A DNA stretch of 64,000 nucleotides from a virus. The translations under genes and the position numbers were made by a program. Where the stretch lies: positions 1 to 64,000 of IMG/VR virus record IMGVR_UViG_3300020183_005994; one strand, given 5' to 3'. The number at the start of each line of letters is the position of its first letter. Position 1 is the first letter of the stretch. Positions 299 through 20,600 of the stretch are shown here, in pieces. The notes under the pieces were generated by a model that worked only from the letters and a program-made list of their open reading frames with translations, was not told the DNA's origin and ran no database searches.

Positions 299-1072
299 AT
301 GTCTAACCATATATCTTTTTCTGCTTTAAAGACTTGGAATGATTGTCCGTTTAAATATAAACTAACATATATTGATAGCATACAAAAATATAAACACACT
401 GAATACACCATCTTTGGCACTTCGCTGCATGAAGCTTGCGAAAGAAAGCTGCTAGATAATTCAACAAATGAAGTTGATATTTTTAATAACAAGTTTGCTG
501 AAGAACTTTCCAAAGTTCCAAGCGATGTTAAGTTTGATGACAAATTAATAAATGAAATGAAAGAGCAAGGTAAAACTCTCTCTGTCATGGCGCTTCCGGC
601 GCTACAACAATATTTTGGTAATTTTACTGTGTTGGCAGCAGAAGAAGATATCTATGAAGTTATTAAACAAGTTCCAGATTTAAATTATAATTTTAAAGGA
701 TATATAGATTTAATTATTAAAACTGAAGATGGCAAAGTACATATCATTGATTGGAAAACTTGTGCTTGGGGCTGGGATGCTAAAAAGAAAAGTGATCCAA
801 TGATCACTTACCAGCTAACTTTTTATAAGTATTTCTATGCTCAAAAACATGGTATTGATCCAAAAAACATTGAAACTCACTTTGCTTTATTAAAGCGTAT
901 TGCAAAGAAGGATCAAGTAGAAATATTTCGTGTAACTAGCGGCGATAAAAAAACACAAAATGCATTTAATTTATTGCTAAAAGCATTGTATAGTATAAAT
1001 AAATCTTTTTATCCTAAAAATAGATTAAGTTGTAAATATTGTGAATACAACAATACAAAGGAATGTCCATGA
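299..1072 (+). CDS. PD-(D/E)XK nuclease, Cas4/RecB-like, probable Fe-S cluster
   Basis: This 257-residue protein has the order of motifs of Cas4/RecB-type exonucleases: an N-terminal Tyr/Phe-rich helix with Cys16, FGTSLHE with His44, GYIDLI with Asp137, then IIDWKT with Asp151 and Lys153 (the (D/E)xK motif), and a QLTFYKYF helix. Four cysteines, Cys16 near the start and Cys245, Cys248 and Cys256 at the end, match the split C...CxxC...C layout that binds a 4Fe-4S cluster in Cas4 and AddB. In this fold it should act on DNA ends with Mg2+, for example in recombination or host DNA processing. It is the first gene after a perfect sigma-70 promoter and overlaps the GDP-mannose dehydratase gene by a few bases. 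The exact biological role is not shown by the sequence. Confidence 0.85.
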   Translation: MSNHISFSALKTWNDCPFKYKLTYIDSIQKYKHTEYTIFGTSLHEACERKLLDNSTNEVDIFNNKFAEELSKVPSDVKFDDKLINEMKEQGKTLSVMALPALQQYFGNFTVLAAEEDIYEVIKQVPDLNYNFKGYIDLIIKTEDGKVHIIDWKTCAWGWDAKKKSDPMITYQLTFYKYFYAQKHGIDPKNIETHFALLKRIAKKDQVEIFRVTSGDKKTQNAFNLLLKALYSINKSFYPKNRLSCKYCEYNNTKECP

Positions 1073-2049
1073 AGATCGCAGTAATCACTGGTATTACTGG
1101 ACAAGATGGTAGTTATCTTGCTGAGTTATTATTGTCTAAAAATTATTATGTAATTGGTCTTGTACGCAGAGGTGCTACGGAAGATCAAAAACTGTATAAT
1201 ATACAACATCTGCTAAATAACAGAGATTTGATTATTGAAAATGGTGATTTAACTGATGCATCTTCTATATGGAGATTAGTAAAAAAATATCAACCAGACG
1301 AATTCTATAATTTAGCTGCACAAAGTCACGTTGGTGCATCGTTTACATCACCAGAAAGTACATTAGAAATTAATACTACTGGTGTATTAAATTGTTTAGA
1401 GGCAATTAGAAACTTGTCACCAAAAACAAAATTTTATCAAGCGTCAACAAGTGAAATGTTTGGTGATACAATAGAATGTCCGCAAAATGAATTGACACCG
1501 TTCTCTCCAGTATCGCCATATGCATGTTCTAAAGTTGCTGCACATAACTTGGTAGTTAATTATAGAAAAGCATATAATCTTTTTGCTTGCTCTGGGATTC
1601 TTTTTAATCATGAATCTCCTCGTCGCGGTGAACAATTTGTAACTAGAAAAATAACGAAAGCAGCCGCAAGAATAAAGCTAGGTCTTCAGAAAGAACTTAG
1701 GCTTGGCAATCTAGATACTAAAAGAGATTGGGGATATGCTAAAGAATATGTTGAAGGCATGTGGATGATGCTACAACAAGAAAAGCCAAGCGATTATGTA
1801 TTGGGCACCGGTAAAACAAGAACAATTTTAGATTTTATTAATTGCGTTTCTGAAATTGCTGGTTATAATTTAATGGATAAAGTTATTTTAGATGAAAATC
1901 TGTTAAGACCGAGCGATGTACCATTATTGCTAGCAGATTCTACAAAAGCAAATATAGTTCTTGGGTGGAAGCCAAAGACAGATTTAAAAACATTAGCAAC
2001 AATAATGTATAATTCAGATTATACAAAGGAAAAGAATAATGTCAAATAA
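1069..2049 (+). CDS. gmd: GDP-mannose 4,6-dehydratase
   Basis: Converts GDP-D-mannose to GDP-4-keto-6-deoxy-D-mannose with bound NADP. The protein (326 residues) is a full-length extended short-chain dehydrogenase: TGITGQDGS at the N-terminus is the Gmd nucleotide-binding loop, STSEMFG carries the catalytic Ser/Thr and Glu, SPYACSK is YxxxK, and NHESPRRGEQFVTRKIT is the Gmd family signature. I chose the ATG at 1069 because the AAAGGA at 1057-1062 is correctly spaced from it and abuts the alternative ATG at 1063. It overlaps the nuclease gene upstream and the glycosyltransferase gene downstream (11 bases). Its product could feed the Fcl/RmlD-like reductase at 12574 or be used for another deoxysugar. 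The local base composition is richer in G+C than in most later genes of the island. Confidence 0.92.
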   Translation: MKIAVITGITGQDGSYLAELLLSKNYYVIGLVRRGATEDQKLYNIQHLLNNRDLIIENGDLTDASSIWRLVKKYQPDEFYNLAAQSHVGASFTSPESTLEINTTGVLNCLEAIRNLSPKTKFYQASTSEMFGDTIECPQNELTPFSPVSPYACSKVAAHNLVVNYRKAYNLFACSGILFNHESPRRGEQFVTRKITKAAARIKLGLQKELRLGNLDTKRDWGYAKEYVEGMWMMLQQEKPSDYVLGTGKTRTILDFINCVSEIAGYNLMDKVILDENLLRPSDVPLLLADSTKANIVLGWKPKTDLKTLATIMYNSDYTKEKNNVK

Positions 2050-3283
2050 AAAATTAAAAATATTAGCGATTAGTGACCATCCGAAATCTCCTAGCGGAGT
2101 TGGTACTCAATCAAATTATATTTTAGAAAATATGGTAAAAACTGGTAAGTATCAAGTTTTATCACTTGGCGGTGCGTTAAAGCATCCAGATAAGCGCCCA
2201 ATGAAGTTTCATGAATATGGCGACGATTATATTATATTACCAGTTGATAATGGATATGGTACACCTGAATTAATTAGAAGTATTCTTATGAAAGAAAAAC
2301 CAGATATTCTTTGGTATATGACTGATCCAAGATTTTATTTATGGTTATGGTCTTTTGAGCAGGAAATTAGAGCAAACGTTCCAATGATTTATTATCATGT
2401 TTGGGACAATTATCCATATCCTAAATTTAATAAACCGTATTATTTAAGTAATGAAAAAATTGTTACTATTTCTAAATTAACTAGTGATATTGTTAAAACA
2501 GTAGCTCCAGAAATAGAAGAAGAATACTTGCCACATGCTGTAGATGATAATATTTATAAACCACTGGATATATCTGAATATAAACATATTATGAGTCCTA
2601 ATAAAACTTTATTTTTTTGGACGAATAGAAACGCTAAACGCAAACTTAGTGGTACAGTTATGTGGTGGTACAAAGAATTTTTAGATATTGTAGGTCATGA
2701 TAAAGCATTGCTTATAATGCATACTGATCCAAAAGATCCTCACGGACAAGATCTTATAGCAATTGCAGAAGAGTTAGGATTAACTAGAGATAATTTTGCC
2801 ATATCTCCCGGTAAAATACCTCCAACAGAAATGGCTAAATTTTATAATGCTGCGGATTGTACCCTTAATATAAGCGATGCAGAGGGTTTTGGTTTGTCCG
2901 TTCTTGAGTCACTATCATGCGGTACACCAGTAATAGCTAATAAAACTGGCGGTATGCAAGATCAAGTTACAGATGGAAAAAATCAATTTGGATTTTTATT
3001 AGAGCCATCAAGTAGAGTTATTGTTGGTTCTCAAGATGTTCCTTGGATATATGAAGATAGAGTATCTAATAAAGATGTTGTAGAAGCTATGATAAAAATT
3101 CATAACATGTCCAGAGAAGAACGAAAAAAACTTGGTGAAGCTGGCAGACAGCATGTATTGAAAAACTTTAATTTTAAAAATTTTATAGATTCATGGGATA
3201 GAATTTTTACTACTTTACATGATAAGTATGGCTCATGGGCAACAAGAAAAAATTATAAATCTTGGGAATCAAAGGAAATGTAA
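2039..3283 (+). CDS. GT-B glycosyltransferase, GT4-like
   Basis: This 414-residue protein resembles retaining glycosyltransferases of family GT4. The C-terminal half contains DAEGFGLSVLESLSCGTPVI, the E-x7-E donor-nucleotide motif (here E-GFGLSVL-E), followed by a GGMQDQV segment, all typical of the nucleotide-sugar-binding Rossmann domain. The N-terminal part has the acceptor-domain start KILAISDHP followed by a glycine-rich loop (SPSGVGTQSNYI). An AAAGGA at 2025-2030 lies 8 bases before the ATG. Acceptor and donor cannot be read from sequence; lying next to gmd, GDP-mannose or a derivative is a reasonable guess. A second GT4-like gene follows directly. Confidence 0.85.
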   Translation: MSNKKLKILAISDHPKSPSGVGTQSNYILENMVKTGKYQVLSLGGALKHPDKRPMKFHEYGDDYIILPVDNGYGTPELIRSILMKEKPDILWYMTDPRFYLWLWSFEQEIRANVPMIYYHVWDNYPYPKFNKPYYLSNEKIVTISKLTSDIVKTVAPEIEEEYLPHAVDDNIYKPLDISEYKHIMSPNKTLFFWTNRNAKRKLSGTVMWWYKEFLDIVGHDKALLIMHTDPKDPHGQDLIAIAEELGLTRDNFAISPGKIPPTEMAKFYNAADCTLNISDAEGFGLSVLESLSCGTPVIANKTGGMQDQVTDGKNQFGFLLEPSSRVIVGSQDVPWIYEDRVSNKDVVEAMIKIHNMSREERKKLGEAGRQHVLKNFNFKNFIDSWDRIFTTLHDKYGSWATRKNYKSWESKEM

Positions 3284-3284
3284 A

Positions 3285-4511
3285 ATGAAAAAAATATTAA
3301 TTTCAGGACCAATATTGAGTAGAAGTGGTTATGGAGAAATGGCTAGGTTTGCTTTAAGATCTTTAAAGGATCGGCCTGACGTTGATCTTTATTTATTGCC
3401 AACTTCTTGGGGAAATACTGGGTGGCTTTTTGATGATAATGAAGAAAGAAGGTATATTGATGAATTAGTTTTAAAAACACAATTATTTCTTCAAAAAAAT
3501 AATAATCAATTTTTATTCGATATTTCTTTACAAATTTCTATTCCAAATGAATGGAAAAAGCTAACCCCAGTTAATATTGGCTATACTGCTGGTATCGAAA
3601 CTAATATGATTAGTCCAGCTTGGTTTGAGCCGTCGCAAGGTATGGATAAAATTATTGTTATTAGCGAACATGCAAAAGCTGGTTTTATAAATACAGTTTT
3701 TGGTAATTCTTTAGGACAACAATTTAAAGTTTTTACTTCTGTGGATGTTGTACATTTACCATATCGTGAAATAGAAAAAGAAAATTTAGATTTAAATTTA
3801 AAATATGATTTTAACTTTTTATGTATTTGTCAATGGAGTGCTAGAAAAAATTTAGAACAAACAATTATAGGATTTTTAGAAGAATTTAGTAATGAAGAAG
3901 TTGGTTTAGTATTAAAAATAAATACTGCCAATGATTCTATGATGGATAGAGAACATACTAAAAAAAGATTGCAAAATTTATTAAATAATTATAAAAATAA
4001 AAAATGTTCTGTTCATTTATTACATGGTCATTTATCCGAGCAACAAATGCAAAGTATATATAATAATCCTAAGATTAAAGCAATTGTTTCTACGACTCAT
4101 GGAGAAGGATTTGGTCTTCCGTTATTAGAAGCAGCCGCCAATGAATTACCAGTTATAGCTACTGATTGGAGCGGTCATACAGATTTTTTATATATGCCCG
4201 ATGAGAAAAACAAGAAAAGAATGTTTGGAAAAATTGATTTTGATTTAAAACCAATATCTAAAGAGCACGTTTGGGCAGGTGTCTTAGAAGAAGGAACTCA
4301 ATGGGCATTTCCTAAAATGGCCTCTTATAAAGATCGTTTGCGAGATTGTTATAAAGATTATGGTCGTTATAAATCACAAGCCAAAAAATTATCTTCTTGG
4401 ATTAAAACTGAATTTGAACAAAAAAAGTTAAATGATAAGTTTTTTTCGCTAATCTGCCCTTCAGCACCAGATGAAGATATTTTTAAAAACTTTTATACAT
4501 TAAATACATAA
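3285..4511 (+). CDS. GT-B glycosyltransferase, GT4-like (second copy)
   Basis: This 408-residue protein has the same general plan as its upstream neighbour but is not a close copy. The start KKILISGPILSRSGYGEMAR is the acceptor-domain loop, and THGEGFGLPLLEAAANELPV followed by DWSGHTDF is the donor-binding E-x7-E region. A longer frame begins upstream inside the previous gene, but the ATG at 3285, one base after the previous stop, gives the typical GT-B beginning and is preferred. It ends immediately before the next gene. G+C content falls noticeably from this gene onward compared with gmd and the first transferase. Donor and acceptor are unknown. Confidence 0.82.
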   Translation: MKKILISGPILSRSGYGEMARFALRSLKDRPDVDLYLLPTSWGNTGWLFDDNEERRYIDELVLKTQLFLQKNNNQFLFDISLQISIPNEWKKLTPVNIGYTAGIETNMISPAWFEPSQGMDKIIVISEHAKAGFINTVFGNSLGQQFKVFTSVDVVHLPYREIEKENLDLNLKYDFNFLCICQWSARKNLEQTIIGFLEEFSNEEVGLVLKINTANDSMMDREHTKKRLQNLLNNYKNKKCSVHLLHGHLSEQQMQSIYNNPKIKAIVSTTHGEGFGLPLLEAAANELPVIATDWSGHTDFLYMPDEKNKKRMFGKIDFDLKPISKEHVWAGVLEEGTQWAFPKMASYKDRLRDCYKDYGRYKSQAKKLSSWIKTEFEQKKLNDKFFSLICPSAPDEDIFKNFYTLNT

Positions 4512-5342
4512 ATGAAAAAAGCTATTCTCTTACAGCCCGGTAAATTAGGTGATCTAATAATAAGTACGCCTATAGCACATTATTATTATAATTTAGGATA
4601 TGAAATTGAGTGGCTTATATTTGATAATTTTAAATCTTTTTTTAGTTCTATACCAAATATAAAAATAAAAACTTTTAATAGTTTATTAAACAATAATTAT
4701 TATACTAATAAAAGATTAAACTTTACAGACGCTAGCAGTAACTCGGCATCATTATGCTTTTTTAAAGAAGCTTATGAATATATAAAAAATAATAAAGAGG
4801 CTAAAATATTAGATATTTGCTGGGGTTTTCCGGGTACTAGTACAAGCAATAACAACTTAAGATTTCTGTTTTATAAACAAAAAAGAAACTGGATTGATAT
4901 GAGGTACCATTTAGCAGAGGTACCATTAAAAGAAAGATGGAATTTTAAATGGAATAGAAATTTAGAAAAAGAAAATAAACTTCTTAAATTTATTAAAGAA
5001 TTTTCTAAAAAAAAATATGGTTCTGAAAAGTTTAGTATTATTCACAATTATGTAGATAATCCTCGCTCCATACAAATGAAAAATCCTATTAATTTATCTT
5101 ATATAAAAGATTATGAACTATATGATTGGTATTTAGTATTATTAGAAGCTGAAGAAATTGCTTGTGTGGATTCTTCTTTGTGTAATTTTGTAGAAGTTTT
5201 ACCAGAGTTAAAAGAAAAGAAAAAATATTATCTGGGAACAGAAGAACCGCATTATTCTGAATATATGAGAAATATTTTATTAAATAATTGGTATGATAGC
5301 AATAATAATCTGATATTATCAGACTATCAAGGTATTTTATGA
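4512..5342 (+). CDS. GT9-like (heptosyltransferase family) glycosyltransferase
   Basis: The start AILLQPGKLGDLIISTPIAH is the N-terminal signature of GT9 transferases, the ADP-heptose:LPS heptosyltransferase family, where the G-x-L/I-GD loop binds near the acceptor. A later segment, AEEIACVDSSLCNFVEVL, corresponds to the C-terminal donor-site helix of the same family. At 276 residues it is shorter than the usual ~320-350, so the acceptor domain may be trimmed. The ATG follows the previous stop directly. The two next genes are heptose-1-phosphate adenylyltransferase and heptose kinase, so an ADP-heptose-like donor is an attractive inference, but GT9-like proteins in phages may use other sugars. 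Confidence 0.7.
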   Translation: MKKAILLQPGKLGDLIISTPIAHYYYNLGYEIEWLIFDNFKSFFSSIPNIKIKTFNSLLNNNYYTNKRLNFTDASSNSASLCFFKEAYEYIKNNKEAKILDICWGFPGTSTSNNNLRFLFYKQKRNWIDMRYHLAEVPLKERWNFKWNRNLEKENKLLKFIKEFSKKKYGSEKFSIIHNYVDNPRSIQMKNPINLSYIKDYELYDWYLVLLEAEEIACVDSSLCNFVEVLPELKEKKKYYLGTEEPHYSEYMRNILLNNWYDSNNNLILSDYQGIL

Positions 5343-5731
5343 AATTAATTTTTACTAATGGTTGTTTTGATGTTTTACACGTTGGACATATAGAATTACT
5401 TAAATTTTCTAAAAATCTTGGAGACAAATTAATTGTTGGTATTAACAGCGATAAAAGTGTTAAAAAATTAAAAGGCAACAACAGGCCAATAAATAATGAA
5501 CAAGATAGAAAAAAAATATTAGAATCTATAAAGTTTGTTGATGAAGTACAAATTTTTGATGATACAACTCCGTTGGAATTAATAAAAAAAATAAAACCGC
5601 ATATTATTGTAAAAGGAGGAGATTATATAAAAGAACAAGTTGTTGGCTTTGGACTTGCTAGTGTTATAATCTTTAATTATTTAGATGGATATTCAACGAC
5701 TAAGACAATTAAAAGTATTAATAATGGGTGA
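5339..5731 (+). CDS. D-glycero-beta-D-manno-heptose 1-phosphate adenylyltransferase (HldE C-terminal domain type)
   Basis: This 130-residue nucleotidyltransferase matches the whole adenylyltransferase domain of HldE/RfaE: TNGCFDVLHVGHIELL contains the HxGH catalytic motif, VGINSDKSVKKLKG and RPINNEQDR follow in the usual order, and IIVKGGDY is the heptose-specific segment that separates it from TagD-like cytidylyltransferases. It should join ATP and heptose-1-phosphate to give ADP-heptose. An AAGG at 5329-5332 precedes the ATG, which overlaps the previous stop. In Escherichia coli this domain is the C-terminal half of HldE, behind the kinase; here it is a free protein and is encoded before the kinase. 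Confidence 0.85.
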   Translation: MKLIFTNGCFDVLHVGHIELLKFSKNLGDKLIVGINSDKSVKKLKGNNRPINNEQDRKKILESIKFVDEVQIFDDTTPLELIKKIKPHIIVKGGDYIKEQVVGFGLASVIIFNYLDGYSTTKTIKSINNG

Positions 5732-6461
5732 TTATTGTACTGATATTTTTTTATATGGTTTTTGTAACAGAATAAGTCCTGAAGCACCAGTACCTGTTTT
5801 TTTGTTTGATCATGAAATAAGAACAGATGGAATGGCTGGAAATGTATATAATAATTTAAAATCTCTTAATGTGAATACTGATTTGCTTGTATCCACTAAG
5901 GATATACAAAAAATAAGATATATAGATTTAAAATCTAAACAACATTTAATTCGTGCCGATTTTGAAAAGCCAGCACCTGAATTAATAATTAATTTTGAAA
6001 CTTTAAAACAATATGATGCAATTATTATATCAGATTACAATAAAGGATCTATTACAGAAAAAGTTTATTCTTTGACTAGACAACTATATGATGGTTTAAT
6101 ATTTGTTGATTCTAAAAAAAATAATTTGTCTATTTTTGATCATGAAAATACAATATTAAAAATTAATGATTTAGAATTTACTAAAGCCAATAAATTACCT
6201 TTAAAATCACCATTAATAGTAACCAAAGGCGATAAGGGTGCCATGTATAATGGTAAAATATATTCTACAAAAAAAGTAGAGGTTTTTGATGTAAGCGGAG
6301 CTGGCGATTCTTTTATGTGCGGATTGGTAGTACAATATCTATTAACTAGAAATATGCCAGAAGCAATCAATTTTGCTAATGTTTGTGCTTCTAACGTAGT
6401 TAAAAAAACAGGAACTGCTATTATTGATTTCCAAGAGGTTATGCATGATATACGTTTTTGA
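5685..6461 (+). CDS. D-glycero-beta-D-manno-heptose-7-phosphate kinase (HldE N-terminal domain type, PfkB family)
   Basis: A ribokinase-fold sugar kinase of 258 residues. The start LKVLIMGDYCTDIF, the next motif RISPEAPVPVF (diagnostic of the HldE/RfaE kinase) and TDGMAGNVYNNL (substrate loop) lead to VSGAGDSF, the PfkB anion hole with catalytic Asp208. It would phosphorylate heptose-7-phosphate at C1. It is shorter than the ~310-330 residues of the HldE kinase domain; parts of the central lid appear reduced. The ATG at 5685 lies inside the adenylyltransferase gene (47-base overlap). A second in-frame ATG at 5724 gives a tighter ATGGGTGA overlap but would remove the first beta strand, so I keep 5685. 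Confidence 0.8.
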   Translation: MDIQRLRQLKVLIMGDYCTDIFLYGFCNRISPEAPVPVFLFDHEIRTDGMAGNVYNNLKSLNVNTDLLVSTKDIQKIRYIDLKSKQHLIRADFEKPAPELIINFETLKQYDAIIISDYNKGSITEKVYSLTRQLYDGLIFVDSKKNNLSIFDHENTILKINDLEFTKANKLPLKSPLIVTKGDKGAMYNGKIYSTKKVEVFDVSGAGDSFMCGLVVQYLLTRNMPEAINFANVCASNVVKKTGTAIIDFQEVMHDIRF

Positions 6462-6765: not shown

Positions 6766-7102
6766 ATTTGTACCAAAAGGTTGGGGATTTGAAAAATGGA
6801 TTGTAAACAGCGATAAATATTGCGGAAAACTTTTGTATTTTGTTAAAGGAAAAAAATGCTCTTGGCATTATCATAAAATTAAAGATGAAGTATTTTATAT
6901 ACAATCAGGAAAAATTTTAGTTAAATATGGACTTGATGAAGACATAACTAAATGCAGCGAATTAATTTTAGAACGAGGAGATAGTTTTCACGTTAATCCT
7001 AACTTAATACATCAAATGCATGCGCTAGAAGATACAGAATTATTTGAGTTTTCAACACAGCATTTTGATGAAGATTCTTATAGGGTAATAAAAGGTGACT
7101 AA
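6743..7102 (+). CDS. Single-domain cupin protein, probably sugar-related
   Basis: A 119-residue cupin: KCSWHYHKIKDEVFYIQSG is cupin motif 1 (two His and a Glu as metal ligands) and ERGDSFHVNPNLIHQMHAL is motif 2 with the further His. The beginning PKGWGFEKWIV resembles the start of the cupin domain of type II mannose-6-phosphate isomerases/GMP synthases and of sugar-binding cupins in capsule loci. It may isomerise or epimerise a sugar phosphate or nucleotide sugar, or only bind one; sequence alone does not decide. An AAGGA lies 7 bases before the ATG, inside the HAD gene, which it overlaps by 23 bases. Confidence 0.72.
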   Translation: MKTTSEHRFVPKGWGFEKWIVNSDKYCGKLLYFVKGKKCSWHYHKIKDEVFYIQSGKILVKYGLDEDITKCSELILERGDSFHVNPNLIHQMHALEDTELFEFSTQHFDEDSYRVIKGD

Positions 7103-7838
7103 TATACAAGATTATAGAGTTTCTTGTACCGATTCATTTAAGATATCGGGAGACATGGGCGACATTATATATTCTCTTTTATATGCTAAAATTTTAAAAA
7201 CAAAAAATATATATTTAGATTCTTCAGGAGGTAAAGACTATATTAGAGATGGTTTTATAAGAAATGTCAAAACTAAATTTAATGAAAAAAGTGCTGAATT
7301 TTTAATGCCTTTGTTAAAAAAACAAAGCTATGTACAAGTAAATATATATGATTCACAACATTACGATTTTGACATGAGTGAATTTGATTATAGAGATATA
7401 GTTATAAGAAATTTAAATATTTTTCATAGTAAAAAGTTTTTAAATTTTAATAAAGAAAGTTTAAATCAAAAATGGATTGAATGTTATAATAATATTATTG
7501 ATCCACTTCCTGAAAGAGATACAATTATTTCTAGAACTCTTAGATATAGAGGAAATGATAATTATTATTATTTAAATTTAGAAAGAATTAATAAAAAAGG
7601 AATTTTTGTTGGTCTTGAAGAAGAATACAAAAATTTTGTTGATTTATATGGTTGTAAAATACCTTTTTTTAAAGCAAAAACTTGTTTAGATATTGCTAAT
7701 TTAATTTCTAAAAAAAACAACTTTATAGGTAATGGTTCTTTAGTGTGCGCTATAGCAATCGGAATTGGTCTAAATATAGAATACGAATATTGTATTAATG
7801 CATCGCATTACATTTTTGATAATATCAAATACTTTTAA
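7095..7838 (+). CDS. GT9-like putative glycosyltransferase
   Basis: A 247-residue protein with a GTG start overlapping the cupin stop. Near its N-terminus FKISGDMGDIIYSLLYAK resembles the GDxGDxIxxxP loop of GT9/GT-B acceptor domains, and near the end NNFIGNGSLVCAIAIGIGL resembles the donor-side helix found in GT9-like proteins. The middle is poorly conserved to anything I know. I infer a divergent GT-B glycosyltransferase. An alternative is a non-catalytic relative that has kept only the fold. The GTG is the only reasonable start, because the next in-frame ATG is inside the conserved loop. Confidence 0.5.
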   Translation: MTNIQDYRVSCTDSFKISGDMGDIIYSLLYAKILKTKNIYLDSSGGKDYIRDGFIRNVKTKFNEKSAEFLMPLLKKQSYVQVNIYDSQHYDFDMSEFDYRDIVIRNLNIFHSKKFLNFNKESLNQKWIECYNNIIDPLPERDTIISRTLRYRGNDNYYYLNLERINKKGIFVGLEEEYKNFVDLYGCKIPFFKAKTCLDIANLISKKNNFIGNGSLVCAIAIGIGLNIEYEYCINASHYIFDNIKYF

Positions 7839-7849
7839 TAGGAAAAAAC

Positions 7850-8623
7850 ATGAATAAAAAAATAGGATTTATAACTTATGTTACCGATGATAAATCAGGA
7901 TATTACGGAATTTATAAAATGATTAATTCATTTTATAAATATCATCCAGATTATCCTTTATATGTTTTATCTTCAAAAGATATTATAAGAGAATGCAATA
8001 AATATGGTGAAAGTAGTTTTTATTATTTTAATCCAATTATGTCTAGAACTATAGCTGATAAATATGATATAGTTGTACACATTGATGCAGATTGTATAAT
8101 AACTGATAGAATGGATGAAATATTAGAGGGCGATTATGATGTGGCTGTTGTTCGCAATAACAGCGATATAGGAACAGCAGGGTGCGGCGCACCATGTACA
8201 GCAAATGGACAAATTGATATTTTTAAATATGCTAATTGTGGTCTTATAGCGTCTTCTAAAAAAGAATTTTGGGATACTTGGATAGCAAATAATCAAAAAT
8301 ATAAAAATGTTTTTTTTCAACACGAACAAGATATCCTTAACTTAATGTTAAAAAATAGTCCAAATTTAAAAGTAAAAATTTTAGATGCTGTTGAAAATAA
8401 TTGTTATTACGGTATTGCAAATGCTTATGGTACAAAAACCCATTGGGATTCTTGGAAAGAAATTGAATTAAGAGGAGATAAACTTTTTTTAAATAATAAA
8501 AAAATTAAAGTACTTCATCATGCAGGTGGTTTTGTACCAGAGAAACTAAAATTAGACACTTCTTTATTTTCCGAAGAGGTATCTAATCATTTAAAAAACA
8601 TTTGTAATGTTATAGAAAGTTAA
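7850..8623 (+). CDS. GT-A glycosyltransferase with DxD motif
   Basis: This 257-residue protein has the layout of a GT-A transferase: an N-terminal IGFITYVTDD strand, then DIVVHIDADCIITDRMDEIL, in which DAD is the metal- and nucleotide-binding DxD motif, then a FKYANCGLIASSK segment and FFQHEQDILNLML, the usual motif near the acceptor site (QDxLN as in GT8-like enzymes). Close to the end VLHHAGGF gives the last metal-binding His. An AGGA 7 bases before the ATG supports the start. The donor sugar is unknown. The neighbours are other transferases and methyltransferase-like genes. Confidence 0.8.
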   Translation: MNKKIGFITYVTDDKSGYYGIYKMINSFYKYHPDYPLYVLSSKDIIRECNKYGESSFYYFNPIMSRTIADKYDIVVHIDADCIITDRMDEILEGDYDVAVVRNNSDIGTAGCGAPCTANGQIDIFKYANCGLIASSKKEFWDTWIANNQKYKNVFFQHEQDILNLMLKNSPNLKVKILDAVENNCYYGIANAYGTKTHWDSWKEIELRGDKLFLNNKKIKVLHHAGGFVPEKLKLDTSLFSEEVSNHLKNICNVIES

Positions 8624-8627
8624 AAAA

Positions 8628-9182
8628 ATGTCATTTAATTATATTAAAGAAAAAGAAAAAATGGATAAATTTTTAATTGGTTTGCAAAAATCAAAAAAAT
8701 TTCTTACTATAGGTTGGAGATATGATAGCGGATATTGGTTATTTGATGATTATGTATCAAAATATTTTACTTTTGATACTGATCAAGTATATGTTTTAGA
8801 TGCTTTTTGTAAAAATTTAGAAGATTTTAATAAATATAATGTTACAAAAATATGCTGCGACATAAGAGATTTTGATTATAAAAAATATTCTTTAAATGAT
8901 GTTGCAATAATTTGGGAACATGGACCAGAACATTTAATCAAAAAAGAAGCTGTAAAAGTAATAAATTCAATGAAAAAATATGCTAGCTTTATTGCAATAG
9001 AAACGCCTAGAGGCGAATATCCGCAAGGAGAACTATATGGTAATCCACATGAAAAACATTTAAGTTCTTGGGATTTTGAAGATTATAAAACTTATTTTCC
9101 TGACTTTACTACGTGGCATAATGATGACCATAATCCACCTCTAGGAGTTTTAGGTGCCTTTTGGAGCAAACATGATATTTGA
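8628..9182 (+). CDS. Putative SAM-dependent methyltransferase-like protein
   Basis: This 184-residue protein has the sequence of elements of a class I methyltransferase, though the glycine-rich loop is weak: FLTIGWRYDSGYW, then VYVLDAFC (strand 2 with an acidic residue), ICCDIRDF, DVAIIWEHGPEHL (strand 4 region) and ASFIAIETPRGEYPQG (strand 5). The last part, NPHEKHLSSWDFEDY, is typical of phage and polysaccharide-locus proteins annotated as methyltransferases. It may methylate a sugar; without a clear GxGxG motif, loss of catalysis is possible. It overlaps the next gene slightly. Confidence 0.5.
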   Translation: MSFNYIKEKEKMDKFLIGLQKSKKFLTIGWRYDSGYWLFDDYVSKYFTFDTDQVYVLDAFCKNLEDFNKYNVTKICCDIRDFDYKKYSLNDVAIIWEHGPEHLIKKEAVKVINSMKKYASFIAIETPRGEYPQGELYGNPHEKHLSSWDFEDYKTYFPDFTTWHNDDHNPPLGVLGAFWSKHDI

Positions 9183-9969
9183 TTGTATGATGTTTTTTAA
9201 TGAAATTGATTTATTAAAAATAAGACTTGAACAACATGATTCTTTTGTAGATAAATTTATTATTATTGAAGCAGATTCTACACATTCTGGAATAAAAAAA
9301 GAATATATTTTAGAAAAACATTTCAAAGAATTTGAAAAGTTTAAAAATAAAATTATTTATGAAAAAATATCTTTTAAAGATATAAATAAGTTTAATATTG
9401 TTTCTTGGAACAATTCTTATAATATAGCGGCTAATAGAGAAATATGGGGTAATGAAAATTTTCAAAGAAATTATTGTTTAATAACATTAAAAAATTTAAA
9501 TGCTTCGGATAATGATATAATTATATCATCAGATTTGGATGAAATAATAGATCATACAACAATGAATAATAGTATAAATTTACTAAATCATTTTGAAATT
9601 ATTAAATGTAGACAAAAACATTATGCATATAAATTAAATTTATATTGTGGTAATGATACGGCTGGTCCAAAAATTTTAAAATATTCTATTTTTAAACAAA
9701 TAGATCCTAGTCTTCTAAGAGAAAAAGATGTTGGTATAGAAATAAATGGTGGCTGGCATTTTAGTTTTCTGTCAGACACCGAGGAAAACGTTTATAAAAA
9801 ATATATTAGTTTCTCACACAGTTTTCAAAATACTGATGTTACAAATGGTAATAAAGGTGTAGAAAAATTACGTAAGGATATGATAAAAGAAAAAGTGAAA
9901 ATTGATAGTTCATATCCAAAATATATTATTGATAATTTACAATATTTTAAAAAATATATTGAGGAGTAA
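9172..9969 (+). CDS. GT17-family glycosyltransferase (beta-1,4-GlcNAc transferase-like)
   Basis: The start FDCMMFFNEIDLLKIRLEQH, followed by VDKFIIIEADSTHSG, is the hallmark of family GT17 (relatives of MGAT3), and IIISSDLDEIIDH supplies the acidic metal-binding cluster. Length is 265 residues from the ATG at 9172; a GTG at 9154 is in frame, but the family begins at the chosen ATG. GT17 members transfer N-acetylglucosamine in eukaryotes, but in bacterial and phage loci the donor is generally unknown. The gene overlaps the methyltransferase-like gene before it and precedes another methyltransferase with a strong GAGGAG site. Confidence 0.8.
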   Translation: MIFDCMMFFNEIDLLKIRLEQHDSFVDKFIIIEADSTHSGIKKEYILEKHFKEFEKFKNKIIYEKISFKDINKFNIVSWNNSYNIAANREIWGNENFQRNYCLITLKNLNASDNDIIISSDLDEIIDHTTMNNSINLLNHFEIIKCRQKHYAYKLNLYCGNDTAGPKILKYSIFKQIDPSLLREKDVGIEINGGWHFSFLSDTEENVYKKYISFSHSFQNTDVTNGNKGVEKLRKDMIKEKVKIDSSYPKYIIDNLQYFKKYIEE

Positions 9970-9972
9970 TTA

Positions 9973-10530
9973 ATGAAAATATTTGGCACAGATGAAAATA
10001 TAAAAATTGATTTAGTGCATGCGGAACTAGTAAAATCATTAGTTATTAGTAGTAAACCTGAAAAAGTTCTTGAATTAGGTATTGGCGGTGGTAGATCAAC
10101 CGATGCTATCATTCAGGCAATAGAATATAATAACAATAAATGTTCATTTACCGTGGTTGATAATTGGTTAGATTTTGGTGGTATAATGCCCCAAGAAGTA
10201 CAACAAAAATATGGTTTAAAAATTAACATTGTGTCGAGTGATGAAAAAAAATATATATTTTCGTGTAACGAAAAATATGATTTTATAATGAGTGATGCAG
10301 ATCATCATCATACAAATGAATGGTTTGAATATGTTTATGATAATATATTAAATAATAATGGAATTTTAATTTATCACGACGTTGATAATGTTACTAACGT
10401 TTATCCTAATTTAGTAGATATATATAAAAAATGTAATGAAAAAAAAATATCACATTATCTTTTTAATAAAAGCTCTTTGGATACTGAAAGATGCCATAGA
10501 GGATTATTAGTGATTTTTAAAACTTTATAG
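9973..10530 (+). CDS. Class I SAM-dependent methyltransferase
   Basis: This 185-residue protein contains VLELGIGGGRST, the glycine-rich SAM-binding loop of class I methyltransferases, then FTVVDNWLDFG (strand 2 acid for the ribose), YDFIMSDADHHHTNEWF (strand 4, with an unusual DADHHH) and ILIYHDVDN (strand 5). The pattern fits the Methyltransf_24 group, common in polysaccharide loci and phages. GAGGAG at 9961-9966 lies 6 bases before the ATG, one of the better ribosome-binding sites here. It probably methylates a sugar or a small molecule; the acceptor is not predictable. Confidence 0.78.
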   Translation: MKIFGTDENIKIDLVHAELVKSLVISSKPEKVLELGIGGGRSTDAIIQAIEYNNNKCSFTVVDNWLDFGGIMPQEVQQKYGLKINIVSSDEKKYIFSCNEKYDFIMSDADHHHTNEWFEYVYDNILNNNGILIYHDVDNVTNVYPNLVDIYKKCNEKKISHYLFNKSSLDTERCHRGLLVIFKTL

Positions 10531-10537
10531 GTTTATT

Positions 10538-11485
10538 ATGAAAAAAATTGTTTATGTTACTGGTTGCTTAGGTTTTATCGGTTCACATGTAACTAAAAAA
10601 TGTCTTGAAAATGGATGGTATGTTATAGGAGTAGATAAAATTACTTATGCTGCTAACGACCACTTACTTAAAAAATTTAATACATATAAAAACTTTAAAT
10701 TTGAAAAAAAAGATATAAATGATATTATTTTTTTACATGATTGTGATTATGTTATAAACACCGCTGCTGAAACACATGTAGACAATTCAATTGTGGATAG
10801 TTCAGAGTTTATAAAATCAAATATTAACGGTGTGCATAATCTTTTAAAATTAATACAAAATTTTAGAGGAACTACAAAACCTATTTTATTACATTTTAGT
10901 ACTGATGAGGTATATGGGGACTCTGGTAATTCAGCGTTTAAAGAAACGGATTTATTATGTCCCAGCAATCCTTATTCTGCTACAAAAGCTGCTGCTGATA
11001 TGCTAATTTTAGCTTGGCACAGAACGCATAACGTACCTTATGTTATAGTCCGTCCAAGTAATAATTATGGTATTTATCAACATGTAGAAAAATTAATACC
11101 AAAATCTTGTAAATATTTACATTTAGGTAAAAAAATTCCTTTACATCAAGCAGGACAACCCAAAAGAACATGGCTGCATGTCGAAGATACAGCTGATGCG
11201 ATTATACAATTAATAAATATTAATGCTATTAATGAAATTTATAACATTGGTGGCAATTTAGAACAAAAAAATATTATAACTGTTAATAAAGTGATAGATG
11301 CTTATTATAATAAATCTGTAAATTATGACGATTATATAGATTTAAATTTTAAACGAGTTGGTCAAGACTTAAAATATCAAATTGATGACACAAAACTTAA
11401 ATCTATTGGCTGGAAAAACAAAAAAATATTTGATGAAGAAATTGTTAAAATAGTTTCTTACTATAAGGATAACTTTGTATGGTAG
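10538..11485 (+). CDS. NDP-glucose 4,6-dehydratase, RmlB-like
   Basis: An extended short-chain dehydrogenase of 315 residues. VTGCLGFIGSH binds NAD; AAETHVDNSI and HFSTDEVYGD are RmlB signatures, the latter carrying the catalytic Thr-Asp-Glu; NPYSATKAAAD contains YxxxK; RPSNNYGIYQHVEKLIP and RTWLHVEDTADAI complete the family pattern. It should turn an NDP-glucose (most likely dTDP-glucose) into the 4-keto-6-deoxy sugar. Compared with bacterial RmlB (~340-360) it is somewhat short. Together with gmd this gives the phage two different routes to 4-keto-6-deoxy nucleotide sugars. It overlaps the transketolase N-half gene by 7 bases. Confidence 0.88.
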   Translation: MKKIVYVTGCLGFIGSHVTKKCLENGWYVIGVDKITYAANDHLLKKFNTYKNFKFEKKDINDIIFLHDCDYVINTAAETHVDNSIVDSSEFIKSNINGVHNLLKLIQNFRGTTKPILLHFSTDEVYGDSGNSAFKETDLLCPSNPYSATKAAADMLILAWHRTHNVPYVIVRPSNNYGIYQHVEKLIPKSCKYLHLGKKIPLHQAGQPKRTWLHVEDTADAIIQLININAINEIYNIGGNLEQKNIITVNKVIDAYYNKSVNYDDYIDLNFKRVGQDLKYQIDDTKLKSIGWKNKKIFDEEIVKIVSYYKDNFVW

Positions 11486-12096
11486 ATGAAAAATTAAAAA
11501 AAAGACTTTTAGAATTATGTTATAAAAACAAGTTACATCACCTTGGTAGTTATTTTTCATCTTTAAACATTATTGATCAAATTTATTCAAAGATGTCCCA
11601 AGAAGATATATTTATTTTATCAAACGGTCATGCAGTTGCTGCTTTATATGTAGTATTAGAAAAATATTTTGGTTTTGACGCTCAATATTTACTTGATAAA
11701 CACGGAGAACATCCAAAATTAGATGAAAAACATAAAATTTATTGTTCTACCGGTAGTTTAGGAATGGGTATTTTAGTAGCTGTTGGTAGAGCGATGGCTA
11801 ATAAAAATAGAAATGTTTATTGTTTAATCTCTGACGGAGAATCGGCGGAAGGATGTGTATGGGAAGCTTTAAGGTTTACAAAAGAAAATAATTTAAATAA
11901 TTTAAAAATATTTGTTAATGCAAATGGATATTGTGCATATGATATAGTTGATATAGAATATTTAGAAAAAAGAATAAAATCATTTAATGAAAATGTTATA
12001 ATTTGTAAAACTCATGTTGAGCATTTTAATTTTTTAAAAGGGATTGATGCACACTATTATTGTATGAGTGAAAAGGATTATGAGGAAAACAAATAA
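11479..12096 (+). CDS. Transketolase-like protein, N-terminal (pyrophosphate-binding) half
   Basis: This 205-residue protein is the TPP pyrophosphate domain of a split transketolase: HHLGSYFSSLNIIDQIY, then LSNGHAVAALYVVLE and STGSLGMGILVAVGRAMA follow the canonical order, and SDGESAEGCVWEAL (Asp119, Glu121) with NANG (Asn147, Asn149) is the Mg/TPP motif. Bacterial split transketolases have N-halves of about 270-280 residues, so this one is distinctly shortened. The catalytic partner half is the next gene, joined by a TAATG overlap. A complete enzyme would move two-carbon units between sugars, possibly supplying sedoheptulose-7-phosphate for the heptose genes, or acting on a keto sugar. Confidence 0.8.
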   Translation: MVDEKLKKRLLELCYKNKLHHLGSYFSSLNIIDQIYSKMSQEDIFILSNGHAVAALYVVLEKYFGFDAQYLLDKHGEHPKLDEKHKIYCSTGSLGMGILVAVGRAMANKNRNVYCLISDGESAEGCVWEALRFTKENNLNNLKIFVNANGYCAYDIVDIEYLEKRIKSFNENVIICKTHVEHFNFLKGIDAHYYCMSEKDYEENK

Positions 12097-12572
12097 TGAG
12101 AAAAACATTTGCTAATCTTCTGTATAGAGAAATGGAAAAAAATAAAGATATTTATTTATTAAGCGGCGATCTCGGTTATAGATTATGGGATAATATAAAA
12201 AAAGATTTTCCTGATAGATTTATTAATCCCGGTTCGGCAGAGCAATTAATGGTAGGCATGGCTGTTGGTTTGGCATTAGAAGGAAAAATACCTGTAGTCT
12301 ATTCTATAACTCCGTTTCTATTATATAGACCATTTGAAATTATAAGAAATTATATAAATTATGAAAAAATATGTGTTAAATTAGTTGGTGGTGGGCGTGG
12401 AAAAGATTACGATAAGCTTGGTTATACTCATTGGGCCGAAGAAGACAAACAAATTATGAGCGTTTTTAATAAAATAACCGTTAAGCATCCTGATACAACT
12501 GTTGAGTTAGAAACAATATTTTTTGATTTTTTATACAATAAAGATCCTTTTTATTTAAATTTAAAGAAATAG
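12096..12572 (+). CDS. Transketolase-like protein, C-terminal (pyrimidine-binding) half
   Basis: This 158-residue protein holds only the pyrimidine domain. PGSAEQLMVGMAVGLALEGK contains the catalytic glutamate (Glu49) that activates TPP, followed by VVYSITPFLLYRPFEIIRN and KLVGGGRGKDYDKLGYTHW, whose His belongs to the substrate site. Normal C-halves are about 310 residues because they include a third domain; this protein ends after the pyrimidine domain, so the third domain is missing. The ATG overlaps the stop of the N-half (TAATG), which suggests coupled translation and a heterotetramer. Confidence 0.8.
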   Translation: MRKTFANLLYREMEKNKDIYLLSGDLGYRLWDNIKKDFPDRFINPGSAEQLMVGMAVGLALEGKIPVVYSITPFLLYRPFEIIRNYINYEKICVKLVGGGRGKDYDKLGYTHWAEEDKQIMSVFNKITVKHPDTTVELETIFFDFLYNKDPFYLNLKK

Positions 12573-12573
12573 T

Positions 12574-13434
12574 ATGAACATTTGGTTAACTACAAAAAAT
12601 GGTTTTCTTGGCAATGAATTAACTAAACTATTTTGTGCAGATAATTCTAATTTATTTTTGTCTTCTAGAAATGAAGTTAACTTATTAAATATTAATGATG
12701 TAAATAATTATATAAAGAAAAATAAAATAGATATTATTTTGCATAATGCCGTAAAAGGCGGAAGAAGAATAAAAAATGATGATTATCAAACATTTTATGA
12801 AAATATTTTAATGTTTGAAAATATTGCTTCGAATTTTAATAAAGTAAAAAAAATTATTAATTTTGATAGTGCCGCTTCCTTTGATAGAAGAAGAGATATA
12901 AATAATTTTAAAGAAAATGAATTAGGTGTTTCAATACCAATTGATTATTATGGCCTTTCTAAAATGAACATAGCCTTAAGAACAAGAAATTATAATAATA
13001 TTTATAATTTAAGAATTTTTAATTGTTTCGGTATTGAAGAAACGCCAGAGCGTATGATTCGTTCTAATATTTTAAAATATATTAACAATAATAATTTAAT
13101 TGTTCACAAGAACAAATTTATGGATTTTTTCTTCGTTGAAGATCTTTATACATTATTAAAATATTATATTAATAATAATGTATTTATTAAAGATATTAAT
13201 ATGGTTTATAATAAAAAATATACTTTAAAAGATATTTGTTTATTAATTAATGATATTAGCACAAAAAAAAGTGATATAATAATCGAAGATGAAATATTAG
13301 ATAATTCTTATACTGGTAATAGTGAATTAATAGATAGTTTAAATTTAAAATTTTATGGTTTAGAATACGGTATAAAAAAAATGTATAATTATTATAATAA
13401 ATTAAGTAATGGAGAAAAAAATGAAACTTTCTGA
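12574..13434 (+). CDS. NAD-dependent sugar reductase/epimerase, Fcl/RmlD-like
   Basis: A 286-residue extended short-chain dehydrogenase. The nucleotide loop is slightly altered (TTKNGFLGNEL). LLNINDVNNYIKKNKIDIIL then HNAVKGGRRIKNDDY parallels the GDP-fucose synthase (Fcl/WcaG) sequence around HLAAKVGG, INFDSAASFD supplies the catalytic Ser, and DYYGLSKMNIAL is YxxxK. It could reduce or epimerise the 4-keto product of Gmd or of the RmlB-like enzyme, closing a pathway to a fucose-, rhamnose- or 6-deoxytalose-like sugar. It is extremely rich in A+T (a hand-counted line gives 10 G+C of 60). The gene ends inside the following small gene. Confidence 0.75.
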   Translation: MNIWLTTKNGFLGNELTKLFCADNSNLFLSSRNEVNLLNINDVNNYIKKNKIDIILHNAVKGGRRIKNDDYQTFYENILMFENIASNFNKVKKIINFDSAASFDRRRDINNFKENELGVSIPIDYYGLSKMNIALRTRNYNNIYNLRIFNCFGIEETPERMIRSNILKYINNNNLIVHKNKFMDFFFVEDLYTLLKYYINNNVFIKDINMVYNKKYTLKDICLLINDISTKKSDIIIEDEILDNSYTGNSELIDSLNLKFYGLEYGIKKMYNYYNKLSNGEKNETF

Positions 13435-17601: not shown

Positions 17602-20600
17602 ATGGCCGATTTTAGCGATGTAGAATTTCCTCCTGTTTCAAAACTACCAACACATTATGCTGGTATAAAAACTATTTTTTTACCACCAGACAAAGATAAC
17701 AATCCTCCATCTTCTATACCAAATGCAAATTCTATTTTTGATCCTAGATTACAATTTATTGATCAAAATGAACAATTTATTGTATTAGAAGAAGGTGTTG
17801 GATATAGTGGTGAATGGACAAAAATTAATTATCGTGGAGATATTGGATATATAGATAACAAATCTATTTTACCATTATCTACCACAAAGCCATCTATAAA
17901 TATGAATTTGTCATCTGAATATTTGCCAAATCTTATTTCTACAAATATTGATTGGAAAGAGCAGAGTGTAGATGAAATATTTTATGATGAAAAAAATGCT
18001 AAATGGTGTATCTCTTTAGATACTGGAGTAGAGATAGTTGGTGAACAGGGGAATAATCCAGAAAATAAAAAGAGAATTTTAGATACAATAAAAAATTCTC
18101 TTTATGTTGGAACCAAATTAATACTTAGAGATACCGGTAGAAGATTTGATGCTGTGTATGTTAAAGAATTAATAGAAAAATATTATTTATTTTCAAAAGC
18201 AGAAAAATATTATTTTCCTATAAGGCCATGCTCAACTATGAGAGTGCTGGTAACAATACCAGCTAGATATATATTTGGATCGGATGTCGAATTAAATCCA
18301 GTTCCTCTTTTTAGACCAGATTTACTAGATGATTCTATAACAGCTCAAAATTTAGATTTCCAAGGATTTTATGATCCAGATATAACTTTTTTTACTGGTA
18401 GTCGCGCTGCTTTAAATAGAGTAGAATATATAAAAATTGATTATGACTCATATGCTGATTTCTCATTACATATTGATAGAATCATATTTGATTTAAGAGC
18501 TTATCAAGTAATACAAGCAGCAAATAAATGGATTGTTGAACCACCTGATATTTCTTTAAATTTACTTAAAGAATCTGCTGACGTAGAAGCATTTAGGGAT
18601 GCTGTAGAAAAGTTTTTAATGAAGAATAATGCCCTTGAACAAACAACATTTTGGAGCAATCAAGCGGAAGCACAAAATGCAATAGGTTTTGCTAAAAATT
18701 ATTTAGATAAATTTGCTGGTAGTTTATTTGGAGACAAAACTCTTGGTGGTGGTAATGTTACTAATTCTGAACAAATAAAATTAAGATTTTACATTTCCCC
18801 AGAACCTTTATTAAAGTTAGAAGCTGTTAAAATTATAAGAATTATTAATGGTCAAGAACAAGAAATACCATTAAATTTTGAATTATATAAATTTGTTAAT
18901 AGTCAGCCTGTTAAGAATAAAACAACTTTATATTATCTTGACAAGATAGAAAGAAAAAGCGCTTTAGACACATTAGGTGAGCGTGTAGCTGCACCATTTA
19001 TTGAAATCGGTAAAGGTGTTGCATCATTTTCTACCGGTATAGTTTTTCCTCTATTAGCTGCTACATTTGTACCAGTAGGTTATGGAGCTTGGGCAGCATT
19101 TAATAGTATAGGACAAACAGTTGGTAATGCTTTTAGATTTGAGCAGCCCCAACAAACAATTAATTACTTTAATGAAGCTGGAGAAGGTATAAATGATACT
19201 ATTAGCAGTGCGTTAGACGAAAGCTCAAAAATTATAGAAGAATTAAATCCAATAACAAATTATAAAAGATTTATTATAGAAAAACATTTTCCAAAAGTTA
19301 ACTCCGTAGAGGCTTTACCAATTGATTTGGCTGACTGTACAATAAATAATTTAAAATCTATTCAAGATATTAAAAACACAAAGATTAAAGAATGGATTAA
19401 AGATTTTGAAGAAAATAAAAAGTTTGGAGCTAGAGTACAAAAAGCAAGAGAGGGTAGTTTATTACTATCGGCCACAGAAACTGATCCTAATATCATTGAA
19501 AATAAAAGTTTAAGATTATTACTTAATTTAGATAAGACGCCACCTGATCCTAAAAAAACTTGGGTTGATAAACTACAATTAGTTTTGTCGTCTGTAAGTG
19601 CTCTGGATTGGCAAAGATTTTTGGCAGAAGCTTTGAAATGTCAAGCTTTTTCTTTTGATCCTCAATTATATCTTGGAATATTAAATAATTATCAAAAAAT
19701 TCGTAAACAAATAGAAAATGTTGCTGCTGCTACTGTATGCAATCCTTATTTAACAAAACTTTTAAAAGAAATTGAATCTTTTCAAATACCTAAATTAAAA
19801 ATCAGAAATAGAAACAAAGCTTTAATAGAACAATTACGAAATCATTTTGTAAAAGTAATAAATGATATTATAGTAATAGGCATTAGAGCAGCCCTTAATG
19901 CAGCTTTTAATAATTGTTTAAAAGATAAAAATCCAAACTTTAATAATAATGGTGATGTATTTAACAATGCTTTAGATAATGCTTCCGATGATCCGGCAAT
20001 TGATGATATATTGAATGATGTATTTGGAAACTTAAAAGATAATGGAGTTATAAATCCTGCCGCCAAAGATGCTGCAAAAGAAAAATTAAAAGAATTGCTT
20101 TCTGATATAGTTCCTTGTTTAACAAGTCTAGAAATTTGTAGATTATTAAACGGTAAACCCGTTAATAGTGAAGTTTTTGAAGTAATTATATCTTTAATAA
20201 AAAGAAAAAACTATTCAATAACCGTTGATAATTCAGGAATAAGCCCAAAAGATTATTTAAACAACAATGCTTCAATAATAGAATTTTTTACTAAACTTGG
20301 TGCGATATTAAACATCGCAGATTGTGAAGATATTTTAAATACCTCTCCTGTACCACCAGCTAATCCATTATGTGATGATGGCTCACTTAATAAATTAAGG
20401 TGTGAATTACTAAAAGGTAAAGGTTTACCGGCTGATGAAGTAGATAGATTATTGGCAGATATTAAAGATCAAGAAAGAAGAAATTTAGAAGATCTATTAA
20501 ACTTTTTAGACAACTCTGATAAATTTCCTTATGATATAGATAAGATACCTTCTATCCTTTGTAAAAATGGTCAAAAGCCTCTTGTTTCTTTAGCGCCGCC

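Follow-up and report, generated by a model that had tools for sequence, protein, structure and literature searches.

A split transketolase without third domain among nucleotide-sugar genes of an uncultivated virus, with a probable role in keto-sugar branching

The window analysed here comprises the first 64,000 nucleotides of the IMG/VR virus record IMGVR_UViG_3300020183_005994, which has 71,361 bases, and it carries two adjoining genes for a split transketolase-like enzyme: a PP half, which binds Mg and the diphosphate of thiamine diphosphate (ThDP), and a PYR half, the pyrimidine domain. From protein families, conserved residues and gene company, we consider it probable that the pair is a minimal ThDP carboligase acting on a nucleotide-linked keto sugar, and not on pentose phosphates. 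The genes directly concerned are the following:

10538..11485, + strand: RmlB-like nucleotide-sugar 4,6-dehydratase, 315 aa (TIGR01181, 286.9 bits; cut-off 365.1)
11479..12096, + strand: PP half of the split transketolase-like enzyme, ThDP-diphosphate/Mg-binding domain, 205 aa (PF00456)
12096..12572, + strand: PYR half, pyrimidine domain with catalytic Glu49 and without third domain, 158 aa (PF02779)
12574..13434, + strand: short-chain dehydrogenase/reductase (SDR) of the 'RED' family, 286 aa (PF01370, 51.9 bits; PF04321, 27.6 bits)

The RmlB-like gene overlaps the PP start, the PP and PYR open reading frames (ORFs) share one base in TAATG, and between the stop of PYR and the start of the reductase lies a single base; therefore, these four genes form a tight row (10538-13434).

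A gene pair reduced to two domains

The PP ORF matched PF00456 (Transketolase_N) with 42.7 bits (cut-off 22) and has the Mg/ThDP motif, and the PYR ORF matched PF02779 (Transket_pyr) with 56 bits (cut-off 27) and has the catalytic Glu, as is proper to the transketolase superfamily; the adjacency of the two genes is that of split transketolases. PF02780, the third domain of the canonical three-domain transketolase (EC 2.2.1.1), found no match anywhere in the 71,361-base record, and the same search was positive in 14 of 14 control genomes. It was also unmatched in all 50 viral records with the pair, a set hand-picked from 79 loci found with PYR and made up mostly of the longer ones. Judged by sequence, the two window proteins are a stripped-down split transketolase without third domain, and this loss is a trait of the whole family, in viruses, Patescibacteria and Omnitrophota, and is not peculiar to this virus. 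A first-pass annotation, made from the letters of the window, had described the two ORFs, their lengths of 205 and 158 aa and their TAATG junction exactly as we find them, and had held that the C-terminal domain is absent, which the search of the whole record bears out. Its view that both halves are unusually small agrees with the relatives that have a third domain, with PYR proteins of ~302-347 aa and PP proteins of ~255-344 aa. The match of PP to the DXS family PF13292 (20.8 bits, cut-off 21.2) covered only part of the protein, and this identity was rejected.

Catalytic positions and predicted fold

The viral proteins were aligned against Salmonella TktA, whose residues at the positions checked match E. 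coli numbering; labels and roles at these positions are those we assume for the E. coli transketolase. All 100 viral PP proteins aligned keep the positions of H26, H66, H100, D155, G156, E160, N185 and H261, and all 99 viral PYR proteins those of D381, E411 (Glu49 of the window PYR), F437 and H473. The first-pass annotation had expected the catalytic residues, and the Glu of close relatives in particular, to be kept, and Glu49 is in fact also invariant in a further alignment (27 of 27 sequences). The annotation's "working but reduced" enzyme fits this full conservation, its activity and the assembly of its halves being predictions. Differences do occur at substrate positions: all 99 viral PYR proteins have Gly at H461, S385 falls in an alignment gap, and the acceptor-contacting D469 is Leu in 75 of 99, including the window, and Asp in 19 of 99. 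Taken together, these changes are suggestive only as a hint of an altered substrate.

The predicted model of the window PP (pLDDT 93.8, pTM 0.91) superposes over all 205 residues on chain 6yak_AAA of the split transketolase of Carboxydothermus hydrogenoformans (Z 23.4, 2.1 Å, 30% identity), so that the PP core is complete, although it is short of that chain by ~54 internal residues (the 205 residues are spread over chain residues 9-267). For the PYR half, a fused PP+PYR model was made from L003, among the nearest relatives of the window (pLDDT 86.2, pTM 0.62). Its PYR half fits 6yaj over 155 residues at 1.9 Å, within chain residues 3-164 of the 303 resolved, and the remainder of the 6yaj chain has no counterpart in it; the mutual packing of the halves is not fixed by this model, with a whole-chain root-mean-square deviation of 15-24 Å. 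By both sequence and fold, 6yak/6yaj is the best solved relative of the two halves. The C. hydrogenoformans enzyme is likewise made of separate PP and PYR chains, but these resolve to 282 and 303 residues, with ~140 residues of PYR beyond the matched part, against 205 and 158 aa in the window; unlike it, the window pair has no third domain and stands in a nucleotide-sugar gene context. The loss of the third domain and of the ~54 internal PP residues would also suit a protein that has given up catalysis and serves as a scaffold or decoy subunit. We regard this as very improbable, as every ThDP/Mg and catalytic position tested is invariant in the viral PP and PYR sets.

Gene company of the viral pair

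Scanned with the PYR alignment, viral sequences yielded 344 relatives, and the 80 best of these form the viral PYR set. The records are mostly fragments of uncultivated viruses, and genes may be missed or merged by the greedy ORF calling. PP lies directly upstream of PYR for 77 of the 80 distinct viral PYR proteins. Among the 79 loci found with PYR, 71 carry the reductase, 68 an RmlB-like gene and 46 an RfbH gene; a 4,6-dehydratase adjoining a ThDP enzyme, as in the ThDP-branched deoxysugar pathway, is thus present in the window and in those 68 loci.

The families involved retain their expected residues. The RmlB-like protein is a relative of RmlB below the TIGR01181 equivalog cut-off; the TDE and YxxxK positions of its family are invariant in 21 aligned sequences, and its nearest solved structures are dTDP-glucose 4,6-dehydratases. 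Y126, K130 and S99 of the reductase are also invariant (21 aligned sequences), and reduction of the new branch is the role proposed for it. RfbH of locus L142 reaches 463 bits against NF011936 (cut-off 423), and the AHH motif is invariant in 13 aligned copies; we take it to be the His that replaces the usual pyridoxal-phosphate lysine, as in the E1 3-dehydrase. In the nearest relatives of the window (L003), RfbH follows immediately after the reductase.

Exchange of the ThDP enzyme class

The SDR reductase family is tightly linked to ThDP enzymes across viral loci, and these enzymes are not always transketolases. Loci fetched with RmlB that have no pair carry other ThDP enzymes instead, of two classes: an acetolactate-synthase/YerE-like class of 560-600 aa with TPP_enzyme_N, M and C domains, and a mini E1 class made of a pair of ~209 and 178 aa (PF00676 E1_dh and PF02779). 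The third domain is absent from E1-class and transketolase-class pairs alike.

To read the counts that follow, it should be noted that each fetched set is the best 80 of a larger match list and leans to the kin of its query, and that near-identical contigs occur among each 80, so that de-duplicated counts take one locus per query-protein cluster. Loci holding the transketolase pair supplied the sequences for the reductase profile; those for the acetolactate-synthase-like and E1 profiles came from loci fetched with RmlB. Score histograms were inspected by eye to choose the class thresholds, which were kept fixed for the counts; the reductase threshold was raised from 50 to 150 bits after a score gap was seen. 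The GDP-mannose 4,6-dehydratase (GMD) family served as the control set for co-occurrence.

A ThDP enzyme was found in 78 of the 80 reductase-found loci (acetolactate-synthase-like in 41, transketolase in 24, E1 in 8, two classes in 5), in 74/80 RmlB-found, 15/80 RfbH-found and 4/80 GMD-found loci, and the difference between the reductase set and the GMD control gives a Fisher p = 1e-37. After de-duplication the counts are 63/65 (reductase), 60/66 (RmlB), 9/49 (RfbH) and 4/72 (GMD). In the two reductase-found loci lacking a ThDP gene, the upstream end of the contig lies at the reductase or ~1.2 kb from it, and three of the five distinct reductases with no ThDP gene detected come from loci fetched by another family. 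The ThDP gene is on the reductase strand in 163 of 163 cases, and the transketolase class lies within 50 bp of the reductase in 63 of 72.

Mapped on a tree of 169 reductases, the ThDP class shows 43 changes, against a mean of 64 for shuffled labels, and for the transketolase label at least 18 changes are forced by starred branches; therefore, the ThDP class is partly inherited and often exchanged. The clearest pair of loci is L226 and L496, which are collinear on both sides of the slot from the L226 gene at 2277 onward, with flanking-gene identities of 53-98% (RfbH 81%, reductase 86%, a 380-aa gene 98%). The space between RfbH and the reductase is filled in L226 by an acetolactate-synthase-like gene of 561 aa and a PanB-like one of 288 aa (together 9284-11837), and in L496 by PP and PYR (6899-7989). 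Furthermore, the order slot, reductase, RfbH, RmlB is shared by L434/L436 with the pair, L452/L466 with E1, and L438/L440/L451/L456 with the acetolactate-synthase-like enzyme, which in these last four is accompanied by a gene of 310-325 aa. Since different ThDP superfamilies replace each other beside the same reductase, a shared chemical role is most likely; what the three classes have in common is that they pass an activated aldehyde on to a ketone. In broader terms, we give somewhat better than even chances to an exchangeable viral "branch cartridge", in which one chassis of dehydratase, 3-dehydrase and reductase works with any of three ThDP superfamilies (decarboxylase/YerE, mini E1, mini transketolase), and each of these should add a carbon branch of its own kind.

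Some loci show further arrangements of the slot. L447, L448 and L449 hold two ThDP classes together (the pair with an acetolactate-synthase-like enzyme, or an E1 pair with a transketolase pair); these cassettes could possibly be swap intermediates or serve double branching. The acetolactate-synthase-like enzyme adjoins a PanB-like ketopantoate hydroxymethyltransferase (PF02548, > 320 bits) in L226 (10971-11837) and L388 (10723-11661), which perhaps supplies the branching reaction with an uncommon 2-oxo acid as donor. In L429 (5479-7223) and L416 (8945-10694) the acetolactate-synthase-like enzyme is encoded in two genes, cut between the middle and C-terminal ThDP domains (~335 and 248 aa).

These replacements also bear on the plainest alternative, that of an ordinary small transketolase which aids the infected cell, either through pentose-phosphate flux for nucleotides or by making sedoheptulose-7-phosphate for heptose. 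Family membership and the intact catalytic residues agree with it, and published readings of viral transketolase genes are similar (PMC3877843; PMC5454428). In addition, an HldE-like adenylyltransferase (130 aa) and a pfkB-type kinase (258 aa), encoded by separate genes at 5339-6461 of the window, 5 kb upstream of the pair, would suit a heptose route. Nevertheless, the neighbours in nearly all relatives are nucleotide-sugar enzymes, and ThDP enzymes that are not transketolases substitute for the pair beside the same partners, a replacement that would be impossible if the pair were there for pentose-phosphate chemistry. For heptose in particular, the SIS_2/GmhA-type isomerase family (PF13580) was unmatched in the window record, where the host could supply GmhA, and above its cut-off in 0 of the 50 viral records with the pair, with weak matches in 4 of 50. 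Relatives of the HldE-like adenylyltransferase are no more frequent where the pair is present: they occurred in 8 of these 50 records against 5 of 40 comparison records, which were hand-picked from the RmlB-found set, mostly lack the pair and include loci with no ThDP match. Because of the slot swaps, we rank this reading below sugar branching and consider it unlikely. As for the two functions offered by the first-pass annotation, the transfer of a two-carbon unit to a keto nucleotide sugar has gained strong backing from gene context and slot replacement, and the making of sedoheptulose-7-phosphate has found little.

Proposed branching of a keto sugar

The RmlB-like and RfbH families both yield 4-keto products. 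The RmlB-like enzyme, judged by its family and catalytic residues, would form a nucleoside-diphosphate-linked 4-keto-6-deoxyhexose, from which RfbH would strip the 3-hydroxyl in most relatives (its gene is unmatched in the window record). PP and PYR would then take hydroxyacetyl, a two-carbon unit, from hydroxypyruvate or a ketose phosphate and join it to the ketone of the sugar, probably at C4, to give a tertiary alcohol; the adjoining SDR reductase would turn the ketone of the branch into a 1,2-dihydroxyethyl branch, and nearby glycosyltransferases may attach the finished sugar to a phage or host glycan.

The same cassette could also hold a carboligase with another acceptor or position, such as a sugar with its ketone at C3, a free or lipid-linked sugar, or an aldehyde from which a higher-carbon sugar is built. 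The variation at the D469 position and the dehydratase partner, which varies in some loci, are compatible with this, and C3 branching is known among ThDP-branched sugars (PMC12247030). We nonetheless hold it to be improbable, as the 4-keto products expected from family knowledge of RmlB-like enzymes and RfbH are the setting of C4 branching in yersiniose (PMC4753412, PMC12247030).

Several observations weigh against branching by the window pair as we propose it. The C4 position, the donor and the nucleotide are guesses. RfbH is unmatched in the window record, which may be a fragment, and the window reductase is divergent, with 43% identity to the nearest in the A4 alignment. For ten of the 80 distinct viral pairs, an SDR from a different cluster stands in place of the RmlB-like and reductase genes, and some loci with RmlB and the pair (e.g. 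L387, L408, L420) have no above-threshold reductase. The reductase of L284 has ~3.1 kb of upstream sequence in which no ThDP gene was detected, and L226 and L496 have no above-threshold RmlB-like gene within the stretch of sequence analysed. Finally, the donor-phosphate positions S385 and H461 are also lost in other split transketolases, and so their loss does not single out a new acceptor.

Distribution in viruses and cells

The cellular set comprised 80 loci from bacterial and archaeal assemblies. Its PYR proteins fall into two length classes, 42 below 200 aa and a group of ~302-347 aa with the third domain. Switches between short and long occur twice on the PYR tree, and among the short proteins those between virus and cell occur 10 times. 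The short cellular cases belong mainly to candidate phyla of the Patescibacteria and to Omnitrophota. Six of the 42 resemble virus contigs binned with cells; these loci (L037, L038, L039, L056, L057, L061), on assembly contigs of Maricaulis, Thaumarchaeota, Planctomycetes and Euryarchaeota, have a virus-like cassette order and are probably misbinned virus contigs. The remaining 36 have an SDR (cluster 5) in 28, a methyltransferase in 21 and a polyprenyl-phosphate-type glycosyltransferase in 29, so that, as their gene families indicate, the short cellular pairs stand likewise in a sugar context. Within L036-L073, from candidate-phylum bacteria, an order of SDR, methyltransferase, short PP, PYR and glycosyltransferase recurs, a cellular cousin of the viral cassette. 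The longer relatives with third domain (L085, L086, L092, L096, L099, L107, L108) have in their loci a fused HldE-like protein, a Gfo/Idh oxidoreductase and a nucleotide-sugar dehydrogenase, and another sugar pathway is possible there.

A search of 50,697 named records revealed, at the sensitivities used, no cultured phage that carries the cassette. In named phages the reductase was unmatched at 1e-4, the best RmlB-like match had 43.8% identity and the best acetolactate-synthase-like match 31.8%. Matches of PP and PYR in named records had at most 34% and 39% identity, respectively, and a Salmonella contig and an Acinetobacter record among them hold pairs of the usual length. The giant-virus marker PF04451 matched 0 of 50 records, but the controls were equally 0, which makes this result uninformative about a giant-virus origin of some cassettes.

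Other genes of the window

Further genes of the sugar region precede the row:

1063..2049, + strand: GDP-mannose 4,6-dehydratase-like gene (GMD) of the same sugar region (PF16363, 394 bits)
2039-3283 and 3219-4511, + strand: two group-1 glycosyltransferases (PF00534)
9154..9969, + strand: GT17-family glycosyltransferase upstream of the cassette (PF04724, 86.2 bits)
9973..10530, + strand: S-adenosylmethionine (SAM) methyltransferase directly 5' of the cassette (PF13578, 36.5 bits)

The GMD-like gene is no specific partner of the pair. Homologues of the group-1 glycosyltransferases lie upstream of the pair in many relatives, and these two enzymes are possible users of the sugar. The SAM methyltransferase is a possible member of the cassette, and a gene 58% identical to it sits 3' of the reductase in L028. 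Elsewhere in the record, a 599-aa protein matches baseplate wedge families, and other proteins match phage primase, resolvase and SbcC/SbcD-like families; because of these matches a tailed phage is the most likely source of the record. Upstream of the baseplate-like gene, at 17602-23403, lies a 1933-aa ORF that matches none of the PHROGs at 1e-5.

Relation to known systems and significance

In the yersiniose A pathway a 4,6-dehydratase acts first and a 3-dehydrase second. As proposed, the viral cassette would follow the same logic as this YerE pathway, that is 4,6-dehydratase, 3-dehydrase, ThDP carboligase and ketoreduction, and in the latter the acceptor branched by a ThDP decarboxylase-type enzyme is CDP-3,6-dideoxy-4-keto-glucose (PMC12247030, PMC4753412). 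YerE is a single chain that uses pyruvate, whereas the window has a transketolase-type pair; YerE-like genes occupy the slot in other viruses. Reduction of the yersiniose branch is proposed, and that of the paulomycose branch has been shown, with a ketoreductase of the aldo-keto reductase family (PMC4753412). For the split transketolases of miharamycin and amipurimycin, transfer of a hydroxyacetyl unit to a keto sugar has also been proposed, but they belong to Streptomyces antibiotic clusters, were never shown to do so in vitro according to PMC12247030, and are likened to the window pair by description only. The alpha-KADH2 enzymes (aldgamycin; AviB1/AviB2 of avilamycin) are two-chain E1-type ThDP enzymes that place acetyl branches on keto sugars (PMC12247030, PMC4753412); they belong to the E1 superfamily and not to that of transketolase, and a mini E1 pair occupies the same viral slot. 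Among viruses, the Micromonas virus MpV-SP1 has split "transketolase N-terminal" and "B subunit" genes together with a dTDP-glucose 4,6-dehydratase (PMC5454428). MpV-SP1 is an algal DNA virus whose genes were read there as Calvin-cycle/pentose-phosphate, and it too is likened by description only; the Micromonas virus gene table lists acetolactate synthase under amino-acid synthesis (PMC5454428).

A 2025 review names the decarboxylase-type, transketolase-type and alpha-KADH2 enzymes as the only ThDP superfamilies that accept ketones, with branched sugars among the products (PMC12247030). According to this review, transketolase branching of keto sugars is proposed on gene-cluster grounds with none characterised in vitro, and viruses are unexplored. 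In the literature searched (titles, the starts of abstracts and parts of papers, subscription papers and preprints being outside the scope), the viral cassette is described nowhere.

The viral family is large, has two small subunits with intact catalytic residues, and offers swap pairs such as L226/L496 that predict the class of donor and product, which makes the question of transketolase branching directly testable. Some viral "transketolase" genes, published as boosters of the pentose-phosphate pathway or the Calvin cycle (PMC3877843, PMC5454428), may be sugar-branching genes, and viral "acetolactate synthase" genes, including that of the Micromonas virus (PMC5454428), may likewise belong to sugar branching. 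Biocatalysis would benefit from a ThDP carboligase of minimal size that forms tertiary alcohols. If the proposal is true, a natural transketolase that accepts ketones would for the first time have been pinned down in the transketolase version, which would also be among the smallest, and the swapping of cartridges would let a virus alter its own surface chemistry or that of its host.

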